Of a DNA stretch of 10,352 nt, positions 1 to 10,352 are shown piece after piece. Under the pieces are notes generated by a model. The model was given only the letters and a program-made list of their open reading frames with translations, did no database searches and was not told the origin of the DNA. The position numbers were made by a program, and so were the translations under genes. Position 1 is the first letter of the stretch. Every line of letters starts with the position of its first letter. This stretch comes from Pseudomonadota bacterium (GTDB lineage: Bacteria; Pseudomonadota; Alphaproteobacteria; Acetobacterales; Acetobacteraceae): contig JAJZCS010000048.1 in NCBI GenBank assembly GCA_021829055.1, positions 1 to 10,352 of the forward strand. The letters run 5' to 3'.

Positions 1-178
1 CGATGGTGTGCAAGATTGCGGTAAACCGCTTCCCGCCTCTGCTAGGACGCCAAAACGCAAATGTCAGGTCCTCTTGTCGGGAACCTTTTACTAGATGCGC
101 CGCAAGCTGCTGATCGATGTCCTGGATAAAAGCAACGGAGCTATCTGCGAAGCCCTCGATGGTCAGCCTGGCGTCCAT
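1..178 (-). CDS. Partial JAB/ThiF-like protein (probable deubiquitinase-E1 component of the Ubl operon), N-terminus only
   Basis: The reading frame starts at an ATG at 178 on the minus strand and stays open for 59 codons to the window edge. It begins MDARLTIEGFADSS and later contains QEDLTFAFWRPSRGGKRFTA. That block resembles, from memory, the first strands of bacterial JAB (Mov34/MPN) domains fused to ThiF/E1 adenylyltransferase domains in Ubl operons. The catalytic JAB residues and the ATP-binding E1 part would lie outside the window, so neither can be seen. The start overlaps the end of the E2-like gene by 16 nt, which suggests translational coupling. If correct, the protein would activate and/or process the Ubl encoded two genes upstream. 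The frame is certain; the family is inferred from a short match and from operon position. Confidence 0.55.
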   Translation of the reverse strand, partial: MDARLTIEGFADSSVAFIQDIDQQLAAHLVKGSRQEDLTFAFWRPSRGGKRFTAILHTI

Positions 179-531
179 CTCGGGTCCGATAACACGGTCA
201 GGATATGGGCCCAGAGATTTTTCACCGTAAGGGGTCTATCAAAACGGCGACTCCAATACTGCCAGCCAGGGCCGATACCGCTGGGCTGAGTCTTTAACGG
301 ATCAGACCAAACCATTGATACTAATGCCGGCCGCGTGTGAACTGCTGTAGGAGCAACATAAGGCGCGGCTGTTGAGCGTGTTATCGCGACGTCACAGCGA
401 TGTCCTTTCAAGCCGCCATAAGTAATGTCCACGTCGTGGACAAGAACATACTCGACGTTGTCCTGGCCCTTAATGGTTTCGACGTTTTTGCCAAGATCCC
501 GTAGATAAGCTTCAAATTCTTCGATTCTCAT
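163..531 (-). CDS. Prokaryotic E2/UBC-like protein (Prok-E2_E type)
   Basis: This is a 122-residue protein starting MRIEEFEAYLRDLGKNVE. It fits the small bacterial E2/UBC-fold families found beside multiubiquitin genes. Supporting features are a hydrophobic strand followed by a Pro/Tyr-rich stretch (PYVAPTAVHTRPAL, about 57-70), a WSDPL segment near 75-79, a GWQYWSRRF block at 89-97, and a C-terminal helix LWAHILTVLSDP. An E2 would carry the activated Ubl from the E1 to its target. The only cysteine is Cys46, in the strand region before the usual active-site position, so a classical thioester cysteine is not obvious. The protein may be a non-catalytic UEV-like member or use another site. The ATG at 531 lies 7 nt after the Ubl stop codon. 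An in-frame upstream extension to 681 exists but would overlap the Ubl gene and looks non-coding. Confidence 0.65.
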   Translation of the reverse strand: MRIEEFEAYLRDLGKNVETIKGQDNVEYVLVHDVDITYGGLKGHRCDVAITRSTAAPYVAPTAVHTRPALVSMVWSDPLKTQPSGIGPGWQYWSRRFDRPLTVKNLWAHILTVLSDPRWTPG

Positions 532-538
532 AGTGAGC

Positions 539-769
539 CTATGATGTCGGGGTCTGACCGAGGAACAAGGCGGTAAACCGCTCACCTTTGTGGAGCGGGA
601 CCTCCTCACCATAGTTCGTGTACACGAACTCACCTTCGTCTCGAGTGAGCTGATATTGGTTAGCCGGCTTAAAGCCAGCATTTTCCAAGATCATCGCGAC
701 CGTCAGTTTCTTCTCATTCGTGAACTGACGTTCACCGTTGATGAAATATTCGATTTTGTTGTCGTCCAT
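539..769 (-). CDS. Ubiquitin-like protein (single multiubiquitin-type domain)
   Basis: This 76-residue protein has a beta-grasp pattern: first hairpin IEYFINGERQFT, then a central helix VAMILENAGFK, then strands around YQLTRDEGEFVY, EEVPLHKGERFTALF and a short tail. It resembles the bacterial multiubiquitin family, which is usually encoded next to E2, E1 and JAB genes, but carries one domain copy. The ATG at 769 is chosen because GAGGTGAT, an excellent Shine-Dalgarno match, lies at 774-781. An in-frame TTG at 811 would add 14 residues and overlap the previous gene, but it has no such site. The protein ends LFLGQTPTS instead of Gly-Gly, so conjugation would need trimming or a different C-terminal chemistry. 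It sits between a membrane hydrolase gene and an E2-like gene, and its role as the conjugated modifier is inferred from that context. Confidence 0.7.
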   Translation of the reverse strand: MDDNKIEYFINGERQFTNEKKLTVAMILENAGFKPANQYQLTRDEGEFVYTNYGEEVPLHKGERFTALFLGQTPTS

Positions 770-773
770 ATCA

Positions 774-781
774 ATCACCTC
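774..781 (-). promoter_or_regulatory. Strong ribosome binding site of the Ubl gene
   Basis: On the minus strand this reads GAGGTGAT, eight consecutive bases complementary to the 3' end of 16S rRNA, four bases before the ATG at 769. It decides the Ubl start in favour of 769 over the upstream TTG at 811. It also suggests that the modifier is translated more strongly than its operon neighbours, whose sites are weaker. Confidence 0.7.
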
Positions 782-803
782 ACAACTAACTTCAGCGCCG
801 TCC

Positions 804-1181
804 TTAGCCAAGTTTTCCTACTAGCGGCAAAGATGCAGGGGTACAAACGTCCATCGCCAAATGAACCAAATATGCTCCGCCGACCGCGAGCCCAACGAAT
901 TGAAGGAGTTTCCCCCAGTCGTCCTCGGGTTCCCAGCGATACAGCTTGTACATCCCGTAGCCAAGCCCTCCTGCGAATGCGATGCTGTGCAGGACCTGTC
1001 GATGACGTGGACTTGTTGCCGGCTCAAGGATGTCAGGTAGTGTTCCCGCCAGGGCTGCGATCGATGACGCAGCAAGCGGTCGGGCAAGGTTGGCTTGTTC
1101 CCCGCGATTGAGTTCATAGGTCAGGCTGGTAAGCCCAACCGTTAACCCGGCTCCGAGACGATGTGCTGTTGCATTTGCCAT
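804..1181 (-). CDS. YdjM/DUF457-like membrane-bound metal-dependent hydrolase
   Basis: This is a 125-residue inner-membrane protein. Conserved points match the YdjM/DUF457 family: an early His (TAHR, residue 7), ALAGTLPDILEP, then SPRHRQVLHSIAF with paired histidines, and the C-terminal HLAMDVCTPASLPLVG that matches the usual H..LD..TP.G.P motif. There are about three hydrophobic segments, near 33-47, 66-76 and 92-108. Family members are thought to be metal-dependent hydrolases in the membrane, but the substrate is unknown. The ATG at 1181 is preceded by AAGGAG at good spacing; an upstream in-frame ATG at 1217 is less likely. It is the first gene of the minus-strand operon and lies 34 nt before the Ubl gene. 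That position suggests it works with the Ubl system, perhaps anchoring the response at the membrane, which is speculation. Confidence 0.7.
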   Translation of the reverse strand: MANATAHRLGAGLTVGLTSLTYELNRGEQANLARPLAASSIAALAGTLPDILEPATSPRHRQVLHSIAFAGGLGYGMYKLYRWEPEDDWGKLLQFVGLAVGGAYLVHLAMDVCTPASLPLVGKLG

Positions 1182-1280
1182 GCTATTTCTCCTTACCGAC
1201 GTCTTTGCGATGCCCATCTCCAGGGGGAGGTTTGGCGGCCATAACCTGTATCCCCGGGGTTGCTTTTAGGCCTGTTTGGT

Positions 1281-1309
1281 ACTATAGTTTACAAAAATCA
1301 TAAAAGCAA
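1281..1309 (-). promoter_or_regulatory. Candidate promoter of the hydrolase-Ubl operon
   Basis: Read on the minus strand, TTGCTT (1304-1309) and TATAGT (1281-1286) are separated by exactly 17 nt. The -10 box matches 5 of 6 consensus bases; the -35 box is weak. The left arm of the palindromic operator fills the spacer, so a bound repressor would block it. The leader to the ATG at 1181 would be roughly 90 nt. Confidence 0.45.
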
Positions 1310-1323
1310 GTATTTTTGTAAAC
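1287..1323. promoter_or_regulatory. Palindromic operator between divergent genes
   Basis: The arms GTTTACAAAAAT (1287-1298) and ATTTTTGTAAAC (1312-1323) are perfect 12-bp inverted repeats with a 13-bp centre. They overlap candidate promoters on both strands and lie just upstream of an XRE repressor-type gene. The natural reading is that this is the binding site of that XRE protein, with one dimer or two spanning the arms. The palindrome is seen directly; the binding protein is inferred. Confidence 0.7.
1288..1316 (+). promoter_or_regulatory. Candidate promoter of the XRE-ImmA/PIN operon
   Basis: TTTACA (1288-1293) and TATTTT (1311-1316) are spaced by 17 nt. Each box lies inside one arm of the palindromic operator, an arrangement typical of an autorepressed antitoxin-like regulator. 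Transcription would begin near 1323, giving a very short leader before the start at 1337. Confidence 0.5.
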
Positions 1324-1336
1324 CTAGGAGATGGCC

Positions 1337-2401
1337 ATGCTAGGAGAACGAATCAAGCGGGCTCGGGTAGCTGCTGGCCTTAACCAGCGTGAGCTAGCCG
1401 AGGCCGCCGGCGTTTCGGCCATGGCTATCTCCAAGTACGAGCGGGGTGAGAACACCCCGTCCTCTACCGTTTTGCTCGCTCTGGCGAAGGCGCTGGAGGT
1501 GCGGACGGAGTACTTTTTCCGGGAGACCGCGATGGAACTCGAGGAAATCGAGTTCCGCAAGCACCCCGAGCTGCCTGAAAAGACAAAGCACCGTGTACTG
1601 GCAGATGCTCACGAACAGTTGGAGCGCTGGGCCGAGCTGGATCACGTTATGCCCGGTTCCTGGGCTACCACGTTCCAGGCTCCCTCTGAGCTGCCGCAGC
1701 ACGTCAATAGCTACGACGAAGTAGAAGGCGTCGCCGAAAAGGTGCGTGAGGCATGGCACTTGGGATTTGATCCGATACCCGATTTAGTAGAGACAGTGGA
1801 AGCCCACGGGATTACCGTGCTTATGAGCAAGTATGCAGAAGCCAAGACCTTTGACGGCTTGGCCGGCACTATGAACGGCCACTCTGTAGTTGTTGTGGGC
1901 GCGGAACTACCTGGGGATCGGCAGCGGTTCACACTCGCACACGAGCTTGGGCATCTAATGTTGAAAGGGCGCCTCTCCGAGAATCTCTCAGAGGAAGATG
2001 CTTGTCATCGATTTGCAGGCGCATTTCTAGTCCCAAAGCGAGCTGTTCTTCGGGCTCTTGGAAAGAGCCGTCAGTGGCTTGAGCCACAAGAGCTTTGGCT
2101 ACTCAAACGGACGTATGGCCTGAGCATGGGGGCTTGGACGTTCCGTGCGCGTGATCTGGGCATCATTAATCAATCTACGATGAGCCAGCTATGGCAGCTT
2201 CTAAAACTCAACGGCTGGGACAAGCGCGAGCCAGACCCGCAATACCCGAAGGAGAAATCGCGGCGATTCAAGCGGTACGTATATCGCGCACTGGCTGAAA
2301 ATATCATCGGCGAATCAAAGGCGGCAGAGCTTCTGAGTATCTCTGTAAGCGCGCTGCATGCCGAACGGCAATTGGAGCGCGCGGGTGATAATAATCAGTG
2401 A
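1337..2401 (+). CDS. XRE-family regulator fused to ImmA/IrrE metallopeptidase
   Basis: This 354-residue protein has two parts. Residues about 1-65 form an XRE helix-turn-helix (MLGERIKRARVAAGLNQREL, then AGVSAMAISKYERGE). Residues about 125-260 form an ImmA/IrrE (DUF955, M78-like) zinc peptidase with HELGH at about 202-206, followed by an acidic EED and HRFAGAFLVP, the usual third-ligand region. The C-terminal part is helical and typical of the longer fused forms. Such proteins act as repressors or antitoxins, and some cleave a partner repressor in response to stress. ATG 1337 is preferred over ATG 1331 because AGGAG ends at 1330, giving a 6-nt spacing. The PIN gene overlaps its 3' end, and a palindromic operator lies directly upstream. 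It therefore probably regulates its own operon, and possibly the divergent Ubl operon. Confidence 0.85.
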   Translation: MLGERIKRARVAAGLNQRELAEAAGVSAMAISKYERGENTPSSTVLLALAKALEVRTEYFFRETAMELEEIEFRKHPELPEKTKHRVLADAHEQLERWAELDHVMPGSWATTFQAPSELPQHVNSYDEVEGVAEKVREAWHLGFDPIPDLVETVEAHGITVLMSKYAEAKTFDGLAGTMNGHSVVVVGAELPGDRQRFTLAHELGHLMLKGRLSENLSEEDACHRFAGAFLVPKRAVLRALGKSRQWLEPQELWLLKRTYGLSMGAWTFRARDLGIINQSTMSQLWQLLKLNGWDKREPDPQYPKEKSRRFKRYVYRALAENIIGESKAAELLSISVSALHAERQLERAGDNNQ

Positions 2402-2876
2402 TGCCAACGTCCTGATTGATATCCTGACGGCGGAGCTGATCCAGGAAATGTTTCGGCTCCCCGAAGCCTTTGCTGTTCCCGACATCCTCTTCACGGAAGA
2501 GCTCGCCGACCACCATCCAGAATTGCCAGGCGCGGGGCTGCAGATCTTGGAGATGGCACCAGAACATATCGAACAAAGTGCGCAGCTTCGTCAACGATAC
2601 GCTCGCCCGAGCATGAACGACTTGTTAGCGCTGACTTTAGCAAGGAATCATCGTTGTCCCTTGCTAACAGGTGACCGTGATCTTCGGATCGTTGCAGATG
2701 AACATGGCGTTGAGGTTCACGGAACACTGTGGTTGCTTGAGCGTTTGATTCAGCAGGAGTTGATTGTGCTGGATCAGTTGGAACAAGCGTATGAACGGAT
2801 GCGTGCCGCCCAGCGGCGTCTGCCATGGGATGAAGTCGAACGGCAGCTACAGAGACTGAACAACCCTCGCCTATAA
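2385..2876 (+). CDS. PIN-domain nuclease (VapC-like toxin candidate)
   Basis: This 163-residue protein starts with a classic PIN first strand, IIISDANVLIDIL. With the GTG start at 2385 the likely metal-binding acids are Asp6, Glu38 (or Glu39), Asp79 in MNDLLALTLA and Asp97 in LLTGDRDLR, a full PIN set. PIN toxins of type II systems cut RNA, and the adjacent regulator acts as antitoxin. The GTG is preferred because GGAG at 2374-2377 gives a 7-nt spacing. An ATG at 2358 in the same frame would add nine residues but overlap the regulator further. The gene overlaps the end of the XRE-ImmA gene by 17 nt, which supports co-translation. The long C-terminal helix (about 110-160) may contact the partner protein. 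Pairing of PIN proteins with XRE-DUF955 proteins is known in general. Confidence 0.8.
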   Translation: MIIISDANVLIDILTAELIQEMFRLPEAFAVPDILFTEELADHHPELPGAGLQILEMAPEHIEQSAQLRQRYARPSMNDLLALTLARNHRCPLLTGDRDLRIVADEHGVEVHGTLWLLERLIQQELIVLDQLEQAYERMRAAQRRLPWDEVERQLQRLNNPRL

Positions 2877-3039
2877 GGCGAGGGGTTCAAGGGCCGTCGC
2901 CTGGAAGGCGACTTGAAATCCAAAGGCACTGCTATTGTGCACATTTCCGAAATTCAAGATTTACGGCTCATGGGCTTCGCCCATGTCGCCGAACTTGCTT
3001 CGCCTGAAGGCGAGGGGTTTCCACCATCCCCGAGGGGGA
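2864..3039. repeat. Cluster of five short hairpins sharing an AGGCG stem
   Basis: Five inverted repeats lie close together after the PIN gene. They are CCCTCGCCT/AGGCGAGGG (2864-2884, overlapping the PIN stop codon), GTCGCCT/AGGCGAC (2896-2912, with outer TTCAA/TTGAA pairing), CATGGGC/GCCCATG (2969-2985), TCGCCT/AGGCGA (3000-3013) and TCCCC/GGGGA (3027-3039). Three share the same CGCCT/AGGCG stem with different loops. None is followed by a clear T-run, so simple terminators are unlikely, though the first may end PIN transcription. Options are a structured RNA, remnants of an IS200/IS605-type end, or REP-like repeats. Confidence 0.55.
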
Positions 3040-3091
3040 CACTAAGAGGCGAATTGTAGATTCAAGGCTGGAAGCAAAGCGCTAAGAGCGT
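2877..3091. other. Non-coding stretch between PIN gene and truncated pseudogene
   Basis: No convincing reading frame is seen here on either strand. Apart from the hairpin cluster, the only notable point is GTCTAAC at 3090-3096, at the exact edge of the pseudogene. The stretch separates the Ubl/XRE/PIN block from the exported-protein genes and so may hold an old insertion junction. Confidence 0.5.
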
Positions 3092-3270
3092 CTAACAAAA
3101 TGAGTTTTCATATGCGTACCAAGAAGCGCCAATGTAATTGGGCCAGAAACTCGTTTTGTAGGTCTCGATAGTGCCAGTCCCTGTGGGCAAGGCGCGCTCT
3201 ACGTCGGTGGAATCGAAGTGCCGCCAGTGGTGTGAATGCTGCAGTCGCTTTACGAGAAACGTGTTCTTAC

Positions 3271-3272
3271 TA
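3271..3272. repeat. TA target-site copy, left of IS630
   Basis: This TA dinucleotide abuts the left end of the element. A second TA lies at 4376-4377. IS630/Tc1-type elements insert at TA and duplicate it. Removing the element plus one TA restores the interrupted frame. Confidence 0.65.
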
Positions 3273-3289
3273 ACCAGAGCAGATAATAC

Positions 3290-3317
3290 TTGACTTTTCT
3301 ATATCCGGTGCCATACT
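3290..3317 (+). promoter_or_regulatory. Candidate IS630 transposase promoter
   Basis: TTGACT (3290-3295) and CATACT (3312-3317) are spaced by 16 nt just inside the left end. The -10 box ends six bases before the ATG at 3324, so the transcript would be almost leaderless. No Shine-Dalgarno site precedes the ATG. Confidence 0.3.
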
Positions 3318-3323
3318 TACGGC

Positions 3324-4349
3324 ATGCGGGAGGATGCACGGTCTTTGTCAGCGACAGCCCAAGCGGCCTTGCGCCGGCGTGGGGTGCGGGCGGTGGCGGC
3401 GGACCAGCCGGTGGCGGCCGTGGCGGCGCTGCTGGGTGTAAGCCGGCAGGCGGTGTATGACTGGCTCGAGGCACGGGAGCGGGGAGGTGACGCGGCGCTC
3501 GCCCCGCGGCGTCGCGGCCGGCCGAAGGGGGCACGGCTTAAGGCGGACCAAGCGCGCAAGGTCACGAGTCTCTTGCGGGACAAACGCCCTGACCAGCTCA
3601 AGCTGCCGTTCTACCTGTGGACGCGAGAGGCCGTGGTGCAACTGCTGGCACGGGAATGCGGGGTGAAGGTGTCGGTGTGGACCGCCGGGCGGTATCTGAA
3701 GGCGTGGGGCTTCACCCCGCAAAAGCCGGTGCGCCGGGCGTATGAGCGGAACCCGTTGGCGGTGGCGCGCTGGCTGAAGACGGAGTACCCCAAGATCCGG
3801 GCCCGGGCGAAGCGGGAGAAGGCCGAGATTTACTGGGGGGACGAGATGGGCTTGCGCTCGGACCAGGCGGCCGGCCGCTCCTTCAGCCCCCGGGGCGAGA
3901 CCCCGGTGATCCCGGGCACCGGCCAGCGCTTTGGCTGCAACCAGATCTCGGCCCTGACCAACAAGGGCAAGCTGCTGTTCATGGTGTTCCAGTCCGGCTT
4001 CACCGCCCGGGTGTTCCGGGAGTTCCTCACCCGACTGGAGCGGCAGGTCAGGCGTCCGGTGTTCCTCATCGTCGGCGGCCATCCGGTGCACAAGGCACGG
4101 GCGATCAACGCCTGGCTGGCGCGTCCCGGTTGCCGGATCACCCTCTACTTCCTCCCCGGTTACAGTCCGGAGCTCAACCCCGACGAGCTCCTGAATCACG
4201 ACGTCAAAAGCCACGTCGGCCGGCGCCGTCCGCGTACCCGCAGCGAACTCCTACGCACCGTGCGCGGTCACCTGCGCCGCCGCCAGCGGCAACCCCACAT
4301 CGTCCGCCGCTTCTTCCAGGAAGTGCCTGTGCGCTATGCGGCCGCGTAA
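3324..4349 (+). CDS. IS630-family transposase, second catalytic Asp replaced by Gly
   Basis: This is a 341-residue transposase. It has an N-terminal helix-turn-helix (AVAALLGVSRQAVYDWLEA, about 32-50), a basic linker (RRRGRPKGARL), a second winged-helix region, and a DDE_3 catalytic domain from about 165. The first acid is Asp173 in IYWGDEMG. The third is Glu288 in YSPELNPDELLN. The usual central motif is VDGHPVH, but here it reads IVGGHPVHKA, so the catalytic Asp is Gly251 (codon GGC at 4074-4076, one base from GAC). The frame is otherwise intact and of normal length. The protein is therefore probably inactive unless a related copy acts in trans. The start agrees with the MREDAR-type N-terminus common in this group. 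Confidence 0.9.
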   Translation: MREDARSLSATAQAALRRRGVRAVAADQPVAAVAALLGVSRQAVYDWLEARERGGDAALAPRRRGRPKGARLKADQARKVTSLLRDKRPDQLKLPFYLWTREAVVQLLARECGVKVSVWTAGRYLKAWGFTPQKPVRRAYERNPLAVARWLKTEYPKIRARAKREKAEIYWGDEMGLRSDQAAGRSFSPRGETPVIPGTGQRFGCNQISALTNKGKLLFMVFQSGFTARVFREFLTRLERQVRRPVFLIVGGHPVHKARAINAWLARPGCRITLYFLPGYSPELNPDELLNHDVKSHVGRRRPRTRSELLRTVRGHLRRRQRQPHIVRRFFQEVPVRYAAA

Positions 4350-4375
4350 TACTGTCAGCTATTTAGTGCTCCCCG

Positions 4376-4377
4376 TA
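4376..4377. repeat. TA target-site copy, right of IS630
   Basis: This is the partner of the TA at 3271-3272. It sits inside the ATT codon at the end of the 5' fragment of the interrupted gene. Confidence 0.65.
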
Positions 4378-4637
4378 ATAACTATCCAGGTGCCTAAAAT
4401 AAAGTCGAATGCGTGAGCTTGTGCGTCCGCGGTTCGCGCAGAAAGGGGAACCCCCGTCGCAGCGCCACTTGCAACGGTGAACAACAGGATAAAACCGCCA
4501 AAACACGCGGCATTGAACCAAGCTTTCAGCATGAATAGCCCTCCATTGTCTGTGATGTACCCTCAGAAAGGAGCGTCAAGGCGCTTCATGGACGACGTTA
4601 GCGCATTATTAGGTCAAGACCGGCCCTATTTTGGAGT

Positions 4638-5144
4638 TCAAAGTTGACGACGGCGCAGAAATAGGATGTCGAAATCAGGTTGCCATGACTTACCCTTATC
4701 TTTCGAAACATAGGCAATTTCACGCACTCCCTCGCCCTGTTTTTGCCAGGTGGCCCGATACCACACGGGCTTGCCGTTTTTGTCCAGATTGTGCCCGTAC
4801 ATCGTGAGCATACCGTTCCTGAAATGACCCTCCAAGATAAGTAACTCTCCAGCATTTGTTACCCAAGATTGATACCAGACGTGTCTCGTTATGTCATAAA
4901 TGCTGAAGCTCTCCCCATCGTGCCCATCATTCTGCAGATAACGCTCGCGAATGACACAGCCTTTGAGTATTGAGCTGATCTGATCTCTGGCAATGTCCGG
5001 CCCCTTACCATCGTCATCGAATGCATTCCAATTCCCCAACCAGAAGTCAAATTGGCGATATTCGGGTGTGCTGCAAGGCCTGCCACCAGCTACGGCAGAG
5101 CCAGCCAGTAGGAAAATCACGATCATCAATAAACTCTTGAACAT
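4638..5144 (-). CDS. Exported protein of unknown function with FDFWLGNW motif (DUF1579-like)
   Basis: This 168-residue protein has a clear Sec signal peptide (MFKSLLMIVIFLLAGSAVAGG). The mature part opens with CSTPEYRQFDFWLGNWNAFD, then LKGCVIRERYLQND, SFSIYDITRHVWYQSWV, LLILEGHFRNGMLTMYGH and a terminal SWQPDFDILF. Such alternating strands and the FDFWLG.W opening are typical of small exported beta-barrel proteins of the DUF1579 kind; no enzymatic role is established. The start at 5144 is chosen because the signal peptide begins there. The in-frame ATG at 5201 would put 19 polar residues before it. The Shine-Dalgarno site is weak. The split pseudogene 105 nt downstream, in the same direction, carries the same motif, so the two look like old tandem relatives. 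Confidence 0.7.
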   Translation of the reverse strand: MFKSLLMIVIFLLAGSAVAGGRPCSTPEYRQFDFWLGNWNAFDDDGKGPDIARDQISSILKGCVIRERYLQNDGHDGESFSIYDITRHVWYQSWVTNAGELLILEGHFRNGMLTMYGHNLDKNGKPVWYRATWQKQGEGVREIAYVSKDKGKSWQPDFDILFLRRRQL

Positions 5145-5201
5145 CGATGTTTCCGATGTAAGGGGTCTTGACAAGGAAAGACGACAGCTATGATGCAGCA
5201 C

Positions 5202-5414
5202 CCTGAGTCAAGTTTTATGTCTTCGAAACCGTATTGAACAACTACCGGCTTTTCCGTGTCGGGGGTGTGCGTGTGTCGTTTTCACAAATTCGACAACAGT
5301 GGTTTATATACATGGACATGAATCTAATGCTTTCAGGGTCTGCTGCCTGATCAGATGTGGTGCATCCACAAATCTATCCAGTGGTTGAGGAAAAGCTTTA
5401 TTTTTGCAAGAACG
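5202..5414. other. Intergenic stretch, no gene seen
   Basis: About 210 nt of lower-GC sequence separates two minus-strand genes. A TATATAAA-like stretch on the minus strand near 5304-5311 could be a -10 region for the downstream exported protein, but no -35 box fits. No RNA gene or terminator is evident. Confidence 0.4.
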
Positions 5415-5858
5415 TTACCAAAAGCTGACGTCCTGGACCTTCCATACCACCGGTTTCCAGACACCGGAAGCTTTAAATTTCGCACCGATGTAATACGCTT
5501 TACCCGCGCGTACATGCAATTTTAGTTCATGTGCGGCATGTTTGTGACCCGCCGAATGGACGAGCCCAGGTACGTCGGCAAAATTTACCGCCTGGCTGAC
5601 ACGCAGCGTGAAAGTGTAGACGCCGGGACGGACCCACAACACGCCCTGATTGGACCGATTGGTCAAGACACCGTCAACGGCTCGGATTTGAACAGGCCAG
5701 ATTTGCCGGGCGTGCTCATCCACGTTCAGATACAATGTGGCGTGCTGCGTCTTTTCAGATGCTACAAAGGGCGAAGTCGAGGCGCAGACCGCAAACGTTG
5801 CAAATATGAGAGCTGCCGTGACAGCCAGCAACGTTCCGCGCTGAAAGGTAGTACTCAT
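5415..5858 (-). CDS. Small exported protein of unknown function
   Basis: This 147-residue protein has a signal peptide (MSTTFQRGTLLAVTAALIFA, then TFAVCAST), probably cleaved after the Ala-Val-Cys-Ala region. The Cys is preceded by Val, so a lipobox is not convincing. The mature part is rich in beta-strand patterns: ATLYLNVDEHARQIWPVQIR, GVLWVRPGVYTFTLRVSQA, LKLHVRAGKAYYIGAKF and VWKPVVWKVQDVSFW. The sequence ..RPGVYTFTLRV....L.V.AGKAYYIGA resembles small beta-sandwich periplasmic proteins in which a polypeptide-binding or PEGA-like strand order recurs, but no family is recognised. The ATG at 5858 has GGAG eight bases upstream. An in-frame ATG at 5966 would add 36 non-signal-like residues. 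It lies in the same direction as the HAF gene, but 148 nt separate them. Confidence 0.6.
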   Translation of the reverse strand: MSTTFQRGTLLAVTAALIFATFAVCASTSPFVASEKTQHATLYLNVDEHARQIWPVQIRAVDGVLTNRSNQGVLWVRPGVYTFTLRVSQAVNFADVPGLVHSAGHKHAAHELKLHVRAGKAYYIGAKFKASGVWKPVVWKVQDVSFW

Positions 5859-5908
5859 ACGGCAATCTCCGCTTTTGTGTGGATATAGATACGTTCGATT
5901 TCGAAGAT

Positions 5909-5933
5909 GGGGGCAGGATCTAACCCCGCCCCC
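5909..5933 (-). other. GC-rich hairpin downstream of the HAF gene
   Basis: GGGGGC (5909-5914) pairs with GCCCCC (5928-5933) in the gap after the HAF stop. A second small stem, GCGTG/CACGC, lies at 5949-5964. No T-run follows on the minus strand, so an intrinsic terminator is only a weak possibility. Confidence 0.3.
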
Positions 5934-6006
5934 GTGCCTTGCGGTGACGCGTGCACTTTCACGCACGCTAACTCGGCGTCGGCGAGACGCGGTTTAGGCC
6001 GGTCTC

Positions 6007-7236
6007 TCAATGTTCCGAATCCGTGGGAATCGCTTTAAACGCCACAGTTGTGCCAGTACTTGGGTCATATGCTTGACCCGTAATCTCACCTCGATCGTTG
6101 ATATCCTGGGCATCCGTGAGCACCAGCGTGGTGCCCGTCACTAGCAAGGTATTGAGATCCGTCATCCTGCCGTCTTGCCAGATAAACGCGTGACCAGAGG
6201 GATAAGACACTCCCACTACCTGCCCTCTGTCATTGACGCCCAGGGCTTCACTTACCGCATCGCCCGTAAGCACGCCCAGGTCGCAGGTGCCGGTGATTTG
6301 ATTGCCATTACAGTTAAAGGGTTTTCGAGACCAGTAGAAAGCATGGAAATTCGCTCCACTAATTGTCGGCCCGTCACCTGGAAGGTCAGAGAATCCTGCC
6401 ACATTCCCGCGGTTGTTGATGTCCATGGGTGTGTTCCAGTAGGCACCGCCCAGCGTCGGCAACTCGCGAACGACTCTTCCGTCACGCCACATGACCATGT
6501 GCTCGGCAGTCGCGCCGCCGATTGCGCCATCACAGATGCCTGAAATGCCAACCACTTGGCCCCTTTGGTTAATGGCGGTGGCCGCACCGTCCAGATCGCC
6601 GGTATACGGGGGCAATTCACTCGCTTGATACTGACCCTTCTGTCGCGTCCATATGACTGCTTCGAATTGCAGCACCTGGTTATTGTTTGTGTACTCCCCG
6701 CAGGTAGGATCATGATTGGTATTTTCGGCCCAGCCCACAATCTGGTCGCGGTTATTGACACCCGTGGCAAAGCCGTTGTCGCCCCCCAATGTGGGGAGCT
6801 CTGTCATTACACCGTCCTGCCATACAAAACCACGGCACACATGTCCGTCGGGGTAAAAGAAAACTGCGAGGTAACAACTCCATTTTTCGCCCAGAGGCTG
6901 TGTTTCGGCGGTCTCGGAAATGCCCACGATCACCCCATGATCATTACGGTTCGGCCAAGCCACCGCGCTGTTGGGTCCGCCGAGTGTGCCAAGATCAACT
7001 GCAGTGTTGTCCTGCCAAAGTTCCGCGTGCATGATGAAGGTACTCGGATAGGTGGAAAAACCCAGAACCTGTCCCGGCTGGTTATTGCTGGTACCCTGGC
7101 TTAAGACGCCGCCCAGCGGATTTCCGAGGTCGATTACTTGATAAAGGGTATTTTCTGTATTGCCGGCATATACGCTGCAGGCAAACAGCAGGATGGCCGA
7201 CATAGAGCTTAATCTGAATAGGAATTTAAATTTCAT
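6007..7236 (-). CDS. HAF-repeat exported protein
   Basis: This is a 409-residue protein with a signal peptide (MKFKFLFRLSSMSAILLFAC, then SVYAGN; cleavage probably after Ala24). The rest is made of about seven HAF repeats. Each is a DLGTLGG-like strand followed by an IN.RGQVVGIS-like strand, with HAF/HAFYW/HAFIW segments between. Repeat cores fall near 34-61, 80-108, 145-171, 207-233, 258-285, 319-346 and 360-390, and the spacing is irregular because loops with Cys pairs are inserted. HAF repeats are found in secreted or cell-surface proteins of proteobacteria and are thought to form a beta-propeller-like fold; their role is unknown. No PEP-CTERM or autotransporter C-terminus is present, so it is probably periplasmic or secreted. 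AAGGAG eight bases upstream supports the start. Confidence 0.85.
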   Translation of the reverse strand: MKFKFLFRLSSMSAILLFACSVYAGNTENTLYQVIDLGNPLGGVLSQGTSNNQPGQVLGFSTYPSTFIMHAELWQDNTAVDLGTLGGPNSAVAWPNRNDHGVIVGISETAETQPLGEKWSCYLAVFFYPDGHVCRGFVWQDGVMTELPTLGGDNGFATGVNNRDQIVGWAENTNHDPTCGEYTNNNQVLQFEAVIWTRQKGQYQASELPPYTGDLDGAATAINQRGQVVGISGICDGAIGGATAEHMVMWRDGRVVRELPTLGGAYWNTPMDINNRGNVAGFSDLPGDGPTISGANFHAFYWSRKPFNCNGNQITGTCDLGVLTGDAVSEALGVNDRGQVVGVSYPSGHAFIWQDGRMTDLNTLLVTGTTLVLTDAQDINDRGEITGQAYDPSTGTTVAFKAIPTDSEH

Positions 7237-7592
7237 AATTAACTCCTTGACAAGGACCGAGCCACCGCTTTGTGACGACCCTAGGATGGAATCGGAAGCA
7301 CTGGCAGATTACATATGCAATCGCATTCAATTCGCAAAAGTAATTTCGTCACGCTGCAAATGAAATACTAGGCTGTGCGCGTTTATTTGCTGGCGGTATT
7401 CGGACCTCAATGTGCGCCAAAATGCAGGGTCCCCTGGTAGCCTGCGCGCGTGCCTCGCGTGATACGGCTGTGTGAGGCTTCCGTCAGCGTCCTGAAATTC
7501 AACAGTGCAAACCGTGGGGACTATGCAAAGCAACGAACCAAAGACAATAATGTCTGAAAACGGCCAGCCGAAGAAGAATCAGTGTCAGTAGA
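7237..7592. other. Divergent intergenic region between HAF and Ada-AlkA genes
   Basis: These 356 nt should hold promoters for both genes, but no convincing -35/-10 pair is visible for either. A TTGACA on the plus strand at 7246-7251 lacks a -10 box. A short perfect palindrome AGACA-ATAA-TGTCT occurs at 7542-7555, about 40 nt before the Ada-AlkA start. No clear copy of the E. coli Ada box was seen. Confidence 0.4.
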
Positions 7593-9101
7593 ATGACGTC
7601 GGTGTGTGCCCCAAGCTCGGACAGCCATGTGGAACTGCTAGACGAACAAACGTGCGAGCAGGCGCGGCTCAATCGGGATGCGCGTTTTGACGGACGCGTG
7701 TTTATCGGAGTCACGTCCACAGGCATCTATTGCCGCCCCATCTGCCCCTCTCCGCATGCAAAACGTGTGCATGTGCGGTATTTCCCCTCGGCCGCAGCGG
7801 CGACCCAGGCTGGATTTCGTCCTTGTCTGCGCTGCCGTCCGGAAGTGGCGCCAGGCACACCTGCTTGGAATGGAACGTCGGCCACGGTGAACCGCGGCCT
7901 GCGACTCATTTCCGAAGGTGCGCTGGATGAGGGTAATGTAGAAACGCTCGCAGTGCGCCTGGGAATGAGTGCGCGCCACCTATCACGACTGTTTTCGCGA
8001 CATTTGGGGGCGTTACCCACGACTGTTGCCCAGACGCGACGACTGCATTTTGCCAAGCAGTTGATCAGTGATACCAACTTATCCATGGCAGAGGTCGCGA
8101 TGGCCTCTGGATTCAAAAGCATCCGACGGTTCAATGAGGTCTTCCGTAAATGCTATGGGCGCCCACCCTCCGAATTGCGGCGCATGGGCCTTCACGCTCG
8201 AGCCTCTGACGAGTACATATTCAATCTAGCTTACCGCCCGCCGTACGATTGGAAATCACTGCTTACCTATCTTGCCGTTAGTTTGACGCCTGGGGTCGAA
8301 TCAATAGCGAACGGCGCATACCACCGCAGCATCGTAATCCACGATCATCACGGAATGCTTGAAGTAAAGCCAGTGGCGGGTGCCCATACACTGCGAGTTC
8401 ACATCCGGTTCCCTCAACCCGAGTGTTTGCTTCAGATCGTCACGCGGGTGCGTGCCATGTTTGATTTAGCGGCAGATCCGGAAGTTATTCGCCAGCATTT
8501 AAGTCGTGATAGCTTGCTGGCGCCCCTGTTGCTGCGTCATCCAGGAATGCGGATACCTGGAGCCTGGGATAGTTTTGAGCTGATCGTGCAGGCAATTCTA
8601 AGCCAGCAATATCCACTGCGCGAGGCCAGGATGCTGGCTGGTCGATTGGTCAAGTGTTTTGGTGAACCGATAGTATCCTCTGATACGCAGGAGCTTTCCC
8701 GTACTTTTCCGCAGGCAAAGACGCTGGCCTGCGCCCGTCTTTCATGCTTGCCGCGATCATGTGCACGCACCATCCGGGCTGCTGCGCAGGCCGTAACCGC
8801 GTCAGGGTCAGACAAATCTCTCGACCAGCTCCTGGCCCAATTGAGAGGCATTAAACAGATAGAAGAATCCACGATTCAATTTATTGCGATGCGGGCACTT
8901 AATGACCCGGACGCGTTTCCCGTAGGACATCGGGTACTGCAGCCCATAATTAGGATAGGTCCAATGCGAGAGGCCGTGCTGCGGCGTGCTGAGACCTGGA
9001 AGCCGTGGCGCGGGTATGCTGCCATGTACCTGCTCTGTGCGGCAGGAGCTCGCCACGAAGACCTGCGCGCTCATAGAGCAGATGCACCATTAGGTGCATA
9101 G
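7593..9101 (+). CDS. Ada-AlkA fusion: alkylation-sensing regulator with degenerate 3-methyladenine glycosylase domain
   Basis: This 502-residue protein has three parts. (1) The Ada zinc/methyl-acceptor domain, about 17-85, has all four cysteines: Cys47 and Cys51 in IYCRPICPS, and Cys78 and Cys81 in PCLRCRPE. (2) An AraC-type helix-turn-helix, about 98-198, includes LAVRLGMSARHLSRLFSRHL and MASGFKSIRRFNEVFRKCYG. (3) An AlkA N-domain (YRPPYDWKSLLTYLA) is followed by an HhH-GPD glycosylase domain with IPGAWDSFELIVQAILSQQ and IAMRALNDPDAFP. In active relatives the HhH reads LPGIGPWTAQYIAMR; here it is LRGIKQIEES-TIQFIAMR, with three extra residues and no Trp. The catalytic Asp expected after DAFP..D is His446 (CAT at 8928-8930). 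Methyl sensing and transcription control may survive while base excision probably does not. The start is weakly supported; a GTG at 7629 is possible. Confidence 0.85.
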   Translation: MTSVCAPSSDSHVELLDEQTCEQARLNRDARFDGRVFIGVTSTGIYCRPICPSPHAKRVHVRYFPSAAAATQAGFRPCLRCRPEVAPGTPAWNGTSATVNRGLRLISEGALDEGNVETLAVRLGMSARHLSRLFSRHLGALPTTVAQTRRLHFAKQLISDTNLSMAEVAMASGFKSIRRFNEVFRKCYGRPPSELRRMGLHARASDEYIFNLAYRPPYDWKSLLTYLAVSLTPGVESIANGAYHRSIVIHDHHGMLEVKPVAGAHTLRVHIRFPQPECLLQIVTRVRAMFDLAADPEVIRQHLSRDSLLAPLLLRHPGMRIPGAWDSFELIVQAILSQQYPLREARMLAGRLVKCFGEPIVSSDTQELSRTFPQAKTLACARLSCLPRSCARTIRAAAQAVTASGSDKSLDQLLAQLRGIKQIEESTIQFIAMRALNDPDAFPVGHRVLQPIIRIGPMREAVLRRAETWKPWRGYAAMYLLCAAGARHEDLRAHRADAPLGA

Positions 9102-9122
9102 AGCACACGAGCAAAAGCGTAC

Positions 9123-9177
9123 GCCTGCACAGAACTCGAGGGGAAACCTCAGGGACAGACCACGGTTTCCTGCAGGC
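9123..9177. repeat. Long paired-arm element after Ada-AlkA
   Basis: GGTTTCCTGCAGGC (9164-9177) pairs with two split pieces on the left, GCCTGCA (9123-9129) and GGAAACC (9142-9148), separated by a 12-nt insert. That gives 14 paired bases around a 15-nt loop, with a bulge on one side only. There is no T-run, so it is not a standard terminator. It could be an RNA structure in the leader of the thioredoxin remnant, or a mobile-element remnant. Confidence 0.5.
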
Positions 9178-9203
9178 AGTAGCAATAAAACCAAGGTGGC
9201 TTT

Positions 9204-9339
9204 ATGAACGAAACTCTCAGCCAGAGCGATCCATTGAACTTCGATGCGCAGGTACTCCAATCGGAGCTGCCTGTACTGGTGAATTACCGGCTCTGATACC
9301 GCTCGACCCCCGACAGGGCGATGTCCCATCTCTAGTTGA
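9204..9339 (+). pseudogene. Decayed thioredoxin gene start, cut by IS256
   Basis: An ATG at 9204, with AAGG eight bases upstream, opens a 30-codon frame. It reads MNETLSQSDPLNFDAQVLQS then ELPVLVNYRL before a TGA at 9294-9296. This matches the N-terminus of thioredoxins (...FEQEVLQS..PVLVDFWA). The bases that follow look like a damaged WCGPCK-AMAPL region: GACCCCCGACAGGGCGATG at about 9304-9322 resembles CGPCKAM codons with indels, then ATGTCCCATCTC resembles MAPL codons. The resemblance ends where the IS256 terminal repeat begins. The active-site CGPC is not readable in any one frame. The gene is therefore frameshifted and truncated. The N-terminal match is good; the downstream homology is a by-eye inference. 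Confidence 0.5.
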
Positions 9340-9356
9340 AGGTTAGAGGCGGCGGT
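9340..9356 (+). repeat. IS256 left terminal inverted repeat
   Basis: AGGTTAGAGGCGGCGGT lies 63 bases before the transposase start and mirrors the final bases of the window. Confidence 0.6.
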
Positions 9357-9418
9357 TTCCGGGTAAATCCGCGAGAATCGGGTTTGCCAACCATGACACT
9401 CTTGGAGAGGAAACCGCC

Positions 9419-10325
9419 ATGAAGAATCGTAGAGTAAAGTCCGCCGGCAAGAAAGCCCGTCTGCGGGTAGTCAGCCGGATCGATCCGCAGGCGCTGCGCG
9501 CCTGTTTTGCCGGGCAGGAGACGCTGCTGGCGCCGTTGCTGACGCTGGTGCAGGACGCCCGGGCGAGCATCGACGAGCTGATGAACGAGACTGCTTGCGG
9601 CTTCGTCGAGCAACTGCTGGTGCTGTCGGCCCAGGAGGTCGCCGGCGACAAGCGTCCGGGAAGGGCGCACGGCGAGGTGCGCTGGCACGGTACCCAGCCG
9701 GGGCGTATTGCGCTGGCGGAACGCAAGCTCAGCGTCCAGCGCCCGCGCCTGCGCACACAGGGTCCGGCATCGCGGGAAGTGGCAGTGCCGGCCTACGAAC
9801 AGCTGCGCACGCAACCGCAGCTGGGCCAGCGGGTGCGCGACATTCTGGTGACCGGGGTCTCGACGCGCAAGTACGCGCGAGTGCTGCCGGCGATGGCGGG
9901 CAGTGTGGGCATCGCCCGCAGCAGCGTGTCGCGTCAGTTCATCCGGGCAGCCGCCCAGGCGCTTCAGACGCTGGTGAGCCGACGTTTCGAGGACCTGGAC
10001 CTGCTTGCCGTGTATCTGGATGGCATCGTGGTCGAGGGCCATCACGTTCTGGCGGCAGGTCAATCGGCTGAAGCTCACACCGGCGCTCATGCGCTGTCTG
10101 GCCACCACTAATCTGATCGAGAATCCGAATGGCGCCGTACGGCGCGTCACCGGCCGCGTTACGCGCTACCGGGATGCCGAGATGGCGTTGCGCTGGGCCG
10201 CCATGGGCTTCCTCGAAGGCGAGAAGTCGTTCCGCCGCATCCAAGGTCATCGTGATCTGTGGGTACTGGCCACCGCGCTCGGGAGAACGGCCATACGCGT
10301 TGACGCCAGCGGGAAGGTCGCGTAG
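9419..10325 (+). pseudogene. IS256-family (mutator-type) transposase, internally deleted and frameshifted
   Basis: The first frame (ATG 9419, with GGAGAGG upstream) runs to about 10058. It encodes the N-terminal part up to LDLLAVYLDGIVVEGHHVLAA, which holds the first catalytic Asp (Asp201). The second frame, from about 10059 to the TAG at 10323-10325, encodes the usual C-terminus: VNRLKLTPALMRCLATTNLI, then ENPNGAVRR, RWAAMGFLEGEKSFRRIQGH and RDLW. In intact family members roughly 150 residues lie between these blocks, including the second catalytic Asp. Here the blocks meet directly at GGCGGCAGGTCAATCGG, out of frame. The protein cannot be active. The remaining ends could still be mobilised by another IS256 copy. 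Confidence 0.85.
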
Positions 10326-10336
10326 TTTATGAATCG

Positions 10337-10352
10337 ACCGCCGTCTCAACCT
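10337..10352 (-). repeat. IS256 right terminal inverted repeat
   Basis: The final 16 bases, read on the minus strand as AGGTTGAGACGGCGGT, pair with 9340-9356. Confidence 0.6.

Follow-up and report, generated by a model that had tools for sequence, protein, structure and literature searches.

The window analysed here, a 10,352-nt stretch made up of positions 1-10352 of its own contig in a genome bin of 2.1 Mb (78.5% complete), probably carries at its left end a Bub-type ubiquitin-like protein (Ubl) conjugation operon that stands under a divergent XRE-M78 protease and includes, as an extra element on the promoter side, a YdjM-type membrane hydrolase. The operon is a variant of the Bub type, with a single-domain Ubl ending in TPTS and a separate E2 gene, and is not categorically new, because the last gene of its relatives is a fused JAB::ThiF gene closest to BubCD and the fold of its E2 is closest to that of BubB. 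It would best be read as a damage-induced defence operon, with the membrane hydrolase module placed upstream of Bub. Of interest are this extra YdjM module and its repeated occurrence in immune operons. An earlier note, made from the DNA letters alone, had described a Ubl-conjugation operon likened to the Bil type; the conjugation operon stood, and its counterparts appear to be BubA, BubB and BubCD rather than Bil proteins. In Bil systems, the E1 and the deubiquitinase are encoded by separate genes, and the E2 has a catalytic cysteine. None of the PADLOC Bil models matched the window proteins at E 1.

Operon architecture

The minus strand of positions 1-1242 encodes, in the order of transcription, a 19-codon micro-open reading frame (micro-ORF), YdjM/DUF457, the 76-residue Ubl, the Prok-E2_E-type E2 and the start of a cut JAB gene (Table 1). 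YdjM and the Ubl gene are separated by 34 nt, the Ubl and E2 genes by 7 nt, and the E2 and JAB genes overlap by 16 nt, so that two of the three junctions are indeed 7 nt or less or overlapping, as stated earlier for four packed genes. Sequences resembling ribosome-binding sites precede YdjM (AAGGAG) and the Ubl gene (GAGGTG). From the spacing of the genes, co-transcription of YdjM with the Bub genes is likely. The proposal that a YdjM-like membrane protein heads the operon agrees with the Pfam score, which is over the cut-off, although the micro-ORF in front of it had gone unmentioned. Overall, the earlier note read the structure correctly and was largely correct about what it means.

Table 1. 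Position of the Bub-like operon, its divergent neighbours and the region between them in the window.
Feature	Position	Strand	Basis
Probable JAB::ThiF, N-terminal 59 codons (BubCD-like deubiquitinase-E1 fusion), open at the contig end	1..178	-	similarity to L002
E2, BubB-like, Prok-E2_E, 122 aa	163..531	-	Prok-E2_E, UBC fold model
Single-domain Ubl, BubA-like, 76 aa	539..769	-	AlphaFold2 model, fold matches, alignment with Ubls of L002-L005
YdjM/DUF457 small membrane metal-dependent hydrolase, 125 aa, first long gene of the operon	804..1181	-	Pfam PF04307, 33.1 bits > 29
Divergent intergenic region, 149 bp, containing the micro-ORF	1182..1330	.	inverted repeat and promoter-like pairs
Micro-ORF of 19 codons, MAAKPPPGDGHRKDVGKEK, stop 1 nt before the YdjM start	1183..1242	-	weak similarity and position
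XRE helix-turn-helix (HTH)-M78 (ImmA/IrrE) metallopeptidase, RmrA/CapH-CapP-like regulator or antitoxin, 356 aa	1331..2401	+	Pfam, PADLOC
PIN-domain protein, putative toxin	2358..2876	+	ORF from ATG 2358, overlapping the XRE-M78 gene

The predicted conjugation proteins

The AlphaFold2 model of the Ubl (predicted local distance difference test 85.4, predicted template modelling score 0.69) has beta-grasp secondary structure. Its nearest folds in Foldseek include bacterial multi-ubiquitin proteins, with a best E of 1.1e-3, and ThiS is also among the best matches. Model and fold matches thus agree with the prediction that the 76-residue protein is a beta-grasp Ubl, and its place directly beside an E2 gene is as expected of Bub. 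The C-terminus, GQTPTS, has no GlyGly. T73, P74 and S76 were invariant in 12 close Ubl rows, one of which (L005) is two residues longer, and eight aligned plasmid Ubls end in VA.

The E2 scored 21.8 bits against Prok-E2_E, below the cut-off of 25, and had 134 relatives at E 0.001, with 120 listed. Its predicted structure has the UBC fold, with Citrobacter BubB as the best fold match, which bears out the assignment as E2-like. When the Protein Data Bank (PDB) was searched with the E2 and Ubl alignments, nothing convincing was returned, and only fold comparison gave matches. C46, the sole cysteine of the E2, is invariant in all 32 close-family rows (the window's included) and is not kept in the plasmid E2s or in BubB. 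Ser94 and Arg95 are invariant in 13 of 13 rows including BubB, but not in the more distant L025, which was compared in another alignment. Bub systems are reported to use oxyester (Ser), not thioester, intermediates, and Ser94 would fit such chemistry.

Over 45 codons, the gene truncated at the contig end shares 49% identity with residues 13-57 of JAB::ThiF from the relative L002 (E 3.6e-8); the 59-residue stretch itself had no meaningful Pfam match. Judged from this similarity and the alignment, it is probably the N-terminus of a JAB::ThiF-type protein, as had been anticipated for the left edge. In relatives, the JAB and ThiF (E1) parts are fused in one gene, and the closest PDB entry is Citrobacter BubCD. 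Searching the bin with the L002 protein gave two further matches (E 0.009 and 0.013); neither is another piece of the cut gene, and the latter lies in a different, Bil-like Ubl operon (contig C217).

The window E2 was found in 1 of 147 relatives and in 1 of 398 genomes of the phylum, in both cases only in the genome of origin. In the phylum of genome G149, two of 396 genomes matched, namely G149 itself and one weak match (4.4e-4), and a GTDB contig scan gave four E2 relatives. As a query, this E2 had no match in the plasmid collection, the phage collection or the viral contigs. With so few matches across these surveys, the operon is a rare one and probably mobile, but no bounds of a mobile element were traced around it.

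Comparison with other Bub operons

The upstream side was read in 18 Bub-like loci (the window, L002-L005, L015-L025, L039 and L040), of which fewer are independent, because L003-L005, L023-L024 and L020-L021 are near copies. A divergent M78 gene over the Pfam cut-off was present in nine (the window, L002, L003, L004, L005, L016, L017, L018 and L024) and one below the cut-off in two more (L015 and L023); L022 has M78 on the same strand, and the remaining six (L019, L020, L021, L025, L039 and L040) had none or were not tested, the XRE gene of L040 lying outside the test. In L002, an XRE-M78 gene and a PemK/MazF toxin diverge from genes in the order Ubl, E2, JAB::ThiF. In L003-L005 (Actinomycetota bins and Acidiferrimicrobium), the HTH and M78 genes that diverge from the operon are separate, as shown in L003 and read from ORFs in L004 and L005. 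On actinobacterial plasmids, the gene divergent from the operon is mostly an XRE-M78 gene, and L023 also has a HigB-like toxin. According to a recent paper, 219 of 544 Bub operons adjoin CapW or CapH+CapP (EMBO J 2026, PMC13373217); the paper describes protection against phage by Bub as undemonstrated.

The Citrobacter Bub structures are deposited as PDB 9ea4, 9eae and 9ea8; the work on this system is reportedly that of Ye et al. 2026 and Gong et al. 2025, both cited in PMC13373217. The Citrobacter operon and that of the window share a Ubl, an E2 of the Prok-E2_E kind, an upstream regulator and, judged from the relatives of the window's operon, probably a JAB::ThiF fusion. In the Citrobacter locus (L020), however, multiple Ubl domains and the E2 form one 362-residue protein, followed by JAB::ThiF and DUF6527, and in front of the operon stand a hypothetical gene and a winged-HTH gene that would take the place of capK/capS. 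In the window, by contrast, the Ubl is one 76-residue domain in its own gene, and YdjM is added. The actinobacterial plasmid operons (L019, L022, L023, L024) have the order of single-domain Ubl, E2 and JAB::ThiF that is probable for the window, and an M78-type protein adjoins in L022-L024 (below the Pfam cut-off in L023). They differ in Ubls that end in VA rather than TPTS, in E2s only 24-29% identical to that of the window and in the lack of YdjM.

Divergent regulator and control region

Both members of the divergent XRE-ImmA and PIN pair noted earlier were recognised by Pfam. The XRE-M78 protein scored 61.7 bits for HTH_3 and 54.8 bits for Peptidase_M78, and in PADLOC it matched RmrA (1.3e-52), capH (6.3e-14) and capP (8e-13). 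The PIN gene, searched from 2373 on, scored 31.9 bits for PIN and 30.4 bits for DUF3368. HTH and M78 domains are shared with the CapH+CapP and RosmerTA regulators, and the arrangement of XRE-M78 beside an overlapping gene for a putative PIN toxin would correspond to that of RosmerTA/RmrA. Unlike CapH+CapP, with its separate HTH and protease genes, the window has one fused protein divergent to the Bub genes. PIN-like domains are listed among the partners of ImmA antitoxins in PMC10440598. The toxin families beside the XRE-M78 gene differ among Bub operons, being PemK/MazF in L002 (371-727), HigB-like in L023 (3817-4134) and PIN in the window, and toxins are possibly swapped at this one slot.

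The intergenic region contains a perfect 12-bp inverted repeat, GTTTACAAAAAT / ATTTTTGTAAAC, at 1287-1298 and 1312-1323. It was matched by 1 of 2000 dinucleotide shuffles, and by 0 of 300 in another shuffle test. A plus-strand promoter-like pair, TTTACA-17-TATTTT (1288-1316), overlaps the repeat, and a weak minus-strand candidate, TTGCTT-17-TATAGT, lies at 1309-1281. In the divergent region of L031, whose XRE-M78 protein is 58% identical to that of the window, the half-sites GGTTTAC and GTAAACC were seen by eye. We looked for an operator common to the divergent regions and found none.

Downstream of the PIN gene, at 2870-3060, many short repeated palindromic pieces were seen by eye.

YdjM in immune operons

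YdjM has putative metal-site residues H60, R61, H65, H107 and D111, which are invariant in an alignment of 21 rows, with D50 nearly so. No PADLOC model matched it. PF04307 was also over the cut-off in L027, L031, L032 and L033. The readable YdjM loci number six, a small sample outside which lie distant YdjM proteins such as that of E. coli and the neighbourhoods of 112 indexed YdjM relatives. The six comprise the Bub operon of the window, three CBASS (cyclic-oligonucleotide-based antiphage signalling system) operons, one Hma system and one lone XRE-M78/PIN pair; every one either adjoins an immune-type regulator or lies inside a defence operon. On a Vibrio plasmid (L027), an HTH protein of uncertain kind is followed by a 57-residue protein, YdjM, a SAVED/HNH effector, a cyclase and an E2. 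On a Pseudoalteromonas plasmid (L028), CapP is divergent from YdjM, cyclase, E2 and a SAVED/2TM effector, and in L032, CapP is divergent from a cyclase, a phospholipase (patatin) effector and YdjM. On a viral contig (L033:4973-11550), the gene of a WYL protein overlaps that of YdjM, and HmaA and a PtuA-like ATPase follow (an Hma-like system). In L031, XRE-M78 and PIN are divergent from a 57-residue protein and YdjM; a tblastn search of this 14-kb stretch with the Bub proteins gave only a 13-residue match (E 0.07).

YdjM was found in 1 of 147 relatives and, at 1e-6, in 1 of 385 genomes of the class (in both only the genome of origin), in 3 of 398 genomes of the phylum at E 1e-8, in 1 of 60 genomes of the family of G912 (G912 itself) and in the single genome of the order of G546 (itself). 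Plasmid records gave 2 of 72,556, and viral stretches one locus among 38 candidates and 0 of 3 in another set; no phage record matched, nor did E. coli by blastn. YdjM is described as LexA-regulated in E. coli and S. aureus and as a predicted phospholipase in PMC11442139 and PMC8557891. These proteins share with ours the Pfam YdjM domain, the conserved His/Asp residues and, presumably, damage-linked control. The subfamily of the six loci differs in being short (119-139 aa) and in standing beside local immune regulators, not LexA, its control being deduced from position. Mentions of DUF457 in PMC12642688 proved to refer to DUF4579 and are irrelevant. Our literature search retrieved no paper joining CBASS and YdjM; preprints and most subscription papers were not covered, so the link may have been published.

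The 57-residue proteins before YdjM in L027 (4826-4999) and L031 (6504-6677) belong to a widespread family with the motif GDGHR ... TGRFMD ... FKGVRKEK and no Pfam match, whose genes often diverge from WYL or XRE regulators and lie within or beside CBASS-like and Bub operons. The micro-ORF of the window resembles the two ends of this family (E 0.009-0.016 against the proteins of L031 and L027, weak on its own), and its place and 1-nt spacing to YdjM are the same as in L031. From this resemblance and the shared place, it is plausibly a shortened copy of the microprotein. A 51-residue relative precedes the Ubl gene in the Nocardioides Bub plasmid L022 (4153-4308). The family occurs in 75 of 72,556 plasmid records, and the neighbourhoods of 12 of the 75 were examined (L035-L046). 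The microprotein was divergent from a WYL gene in five, one of which continues with annotated nucleotidyltransferase and ThiF genes; the independent WYL cases are fewer, because two Klebsiella plasmids are similar. It was divergent from an XRE gene in one, the last gene of a Bub operon in two (L039, L040), among TIR/SIR2 and retron genes in one, and without a directly adjoining defence gene in three.

Gene neighbourhood thus hints at a recurrence of YdjM across immune operons. Tentatively, the short YdjM-type membrane lipase, often with the 57-residue microprotein, might be a general plug-in of bacterial immunity, serving as a common damage-induced membrane effector for Bub, CBASS, Hma and lone RmrA-like/PIN systems. 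Such a plug-in might slot in beside XRE-M78, CapP or WYL regulators, with patatin or SAVED effectors as its CBASS partners, an idea we hold equally loosely. If true, it would tie bacterial immunity to the YdjM that LexA controls in E. coli and S. aureus. The window holds the only Bub operon in the sample with YdjM, and for Bub operons neither an effector nor a proven phage target is known to us; YdjM would then be a candidate executor for Bub.

Proposed mechanism and alternatives

In the resting cell, XRE-M78 would be bound to the inverted repeat (1287-1323), holding down both divergent promoters. By analogy with CapH+CapP, a damage or phage signal may trigger the M78 protease and lift repression, and one transcript would then yield YdjM, the Ubl, the E2 and the JAB-E1 fusion. 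The E1 half is expected to adenylate the C-terminus of the Ubl (Ser76) and to hand the Ubl to the E2, from which it would pass to target proteins, while the JAB half would remove it again. YdjM may act as a damage-induced, membrane lipase-like partner or effector. The small parts would make the system a handy model for diverged conjugation chemistry.

Several observations weigh against this assignment. The assembly lacks the E1 part, so that a complete working set is here only predicted; in the L002 relative, Pfam detects ThiF but no JAB domain, and the JAB reading there rests on alignment with BubCD (Prok-JAB 43 bits) and on an HxH...D motif seen by eye. The Ubl had no Pfam match, and neither the Ubl nor the E2 model had a Foldseek match below E 0.001. 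As for control, such a repeat is no general feature (more than 10% of shuffles reached the best one in 9 of the 13 other divergent regions), the best minus-strand promoter pairs reach only 8/12 and were not called by the promoter scan, and that scan found 2 promoters against a shuffle mean of 1.9. YdjM, finally, is absent from all 16 other Bub-like loci (L002-L005, L015-L020, L022-L025, L039, L040), some with short flanks.

This absence also bears on the strongest alternative, to which we give a little less than an even chance: that XRE-M78, PIN, micro-ORF and YdjM form a separate toxin-antitoxin-like defence unit that landed upstream of Bub and shares its transcript but not its function. The combination of XRE-M78, PIN and YdjM in L031 (58%, 50% and 50% identical to those of the window), with no Bub gene, is what such a unit would look like, and the 34-nt gap before the Ubl gene is wider than the 7 nt and the overlap downstream. 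However, YdjM also lies inside CBASS and Hma operons, and joining immune operons therefore appears to be a habit of this protein. Moreover, YdjM relatives 85% and 80% identical have longest contigs equal in size to those of the 89% identical E2 and 91% identical Ubl relatives. The only other equal-size coincidences for YdjM are rows identical to the window, where the longest contig listed is 15603 bases for both YdjM and the Ubl. The match in size, an indirect sign of linkage, suggests that YdjM and Bub stayed in this arrangement while protein identity fell to 80-91%.

That YdjM serves the Ubl as membrane target or anchor, with conjugation recruiting or switching the hydrolase at the membrane, is unlikely. 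The likely co-transcription in the window would suit this, as would the E2 encoded in two of the three CBASS operons with YdjM (PADLOC E2 2.3e-99 and 2.8e-49) and in the window operon, but PADLOC recognised no E2 among the tested proteins of the L032 CBASS operon, L031 and L033. A sulfur-carrier or cofactor pathway (a ThiS/MoaD-like Ubl with E1 and JAB peptidase) in place of protein conjugation is highly improbable: ThiS is among the best Ubl fold matches and JAB proteases occur with sulfur carriers too, but the operon has a dedicated E2 with BubB as best match, a Ubl without a GlyGly end, and an adjoining toxin and immune-type regulator.

Other genes of the window and the bin

A second Ubl operon lies on contig C217 of the same genome (L001:656-1725, L014:910-2967). 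Because an 83-residue Ubl-like ORF (PADLOC BilA only 0.0075), a 153-residue ORF without Pfam or PADLOC match, a JAB piece (BilC 3.3e-7), ThiF (BilD 1.3e-11) and a TIR-like gene (ThsB 6.5e-7) follow in a row, the bin seems to carry a Bil-like operon besides the Bub-like one. No CD-NTase, the mark of CBASS, was seen among the visible genes of the window, whose contig ends inside the operon. By eye, the 341-residue ORF at 3324-4349 resembles an IS630-type transposase, the two overlapping plus-strand ORFs at the other contig end (9419-10325) a disrupted transposase, and the 502-residue ORF at 7593-9101 an Ada/AlkA-type DNA alkylation repair protein.
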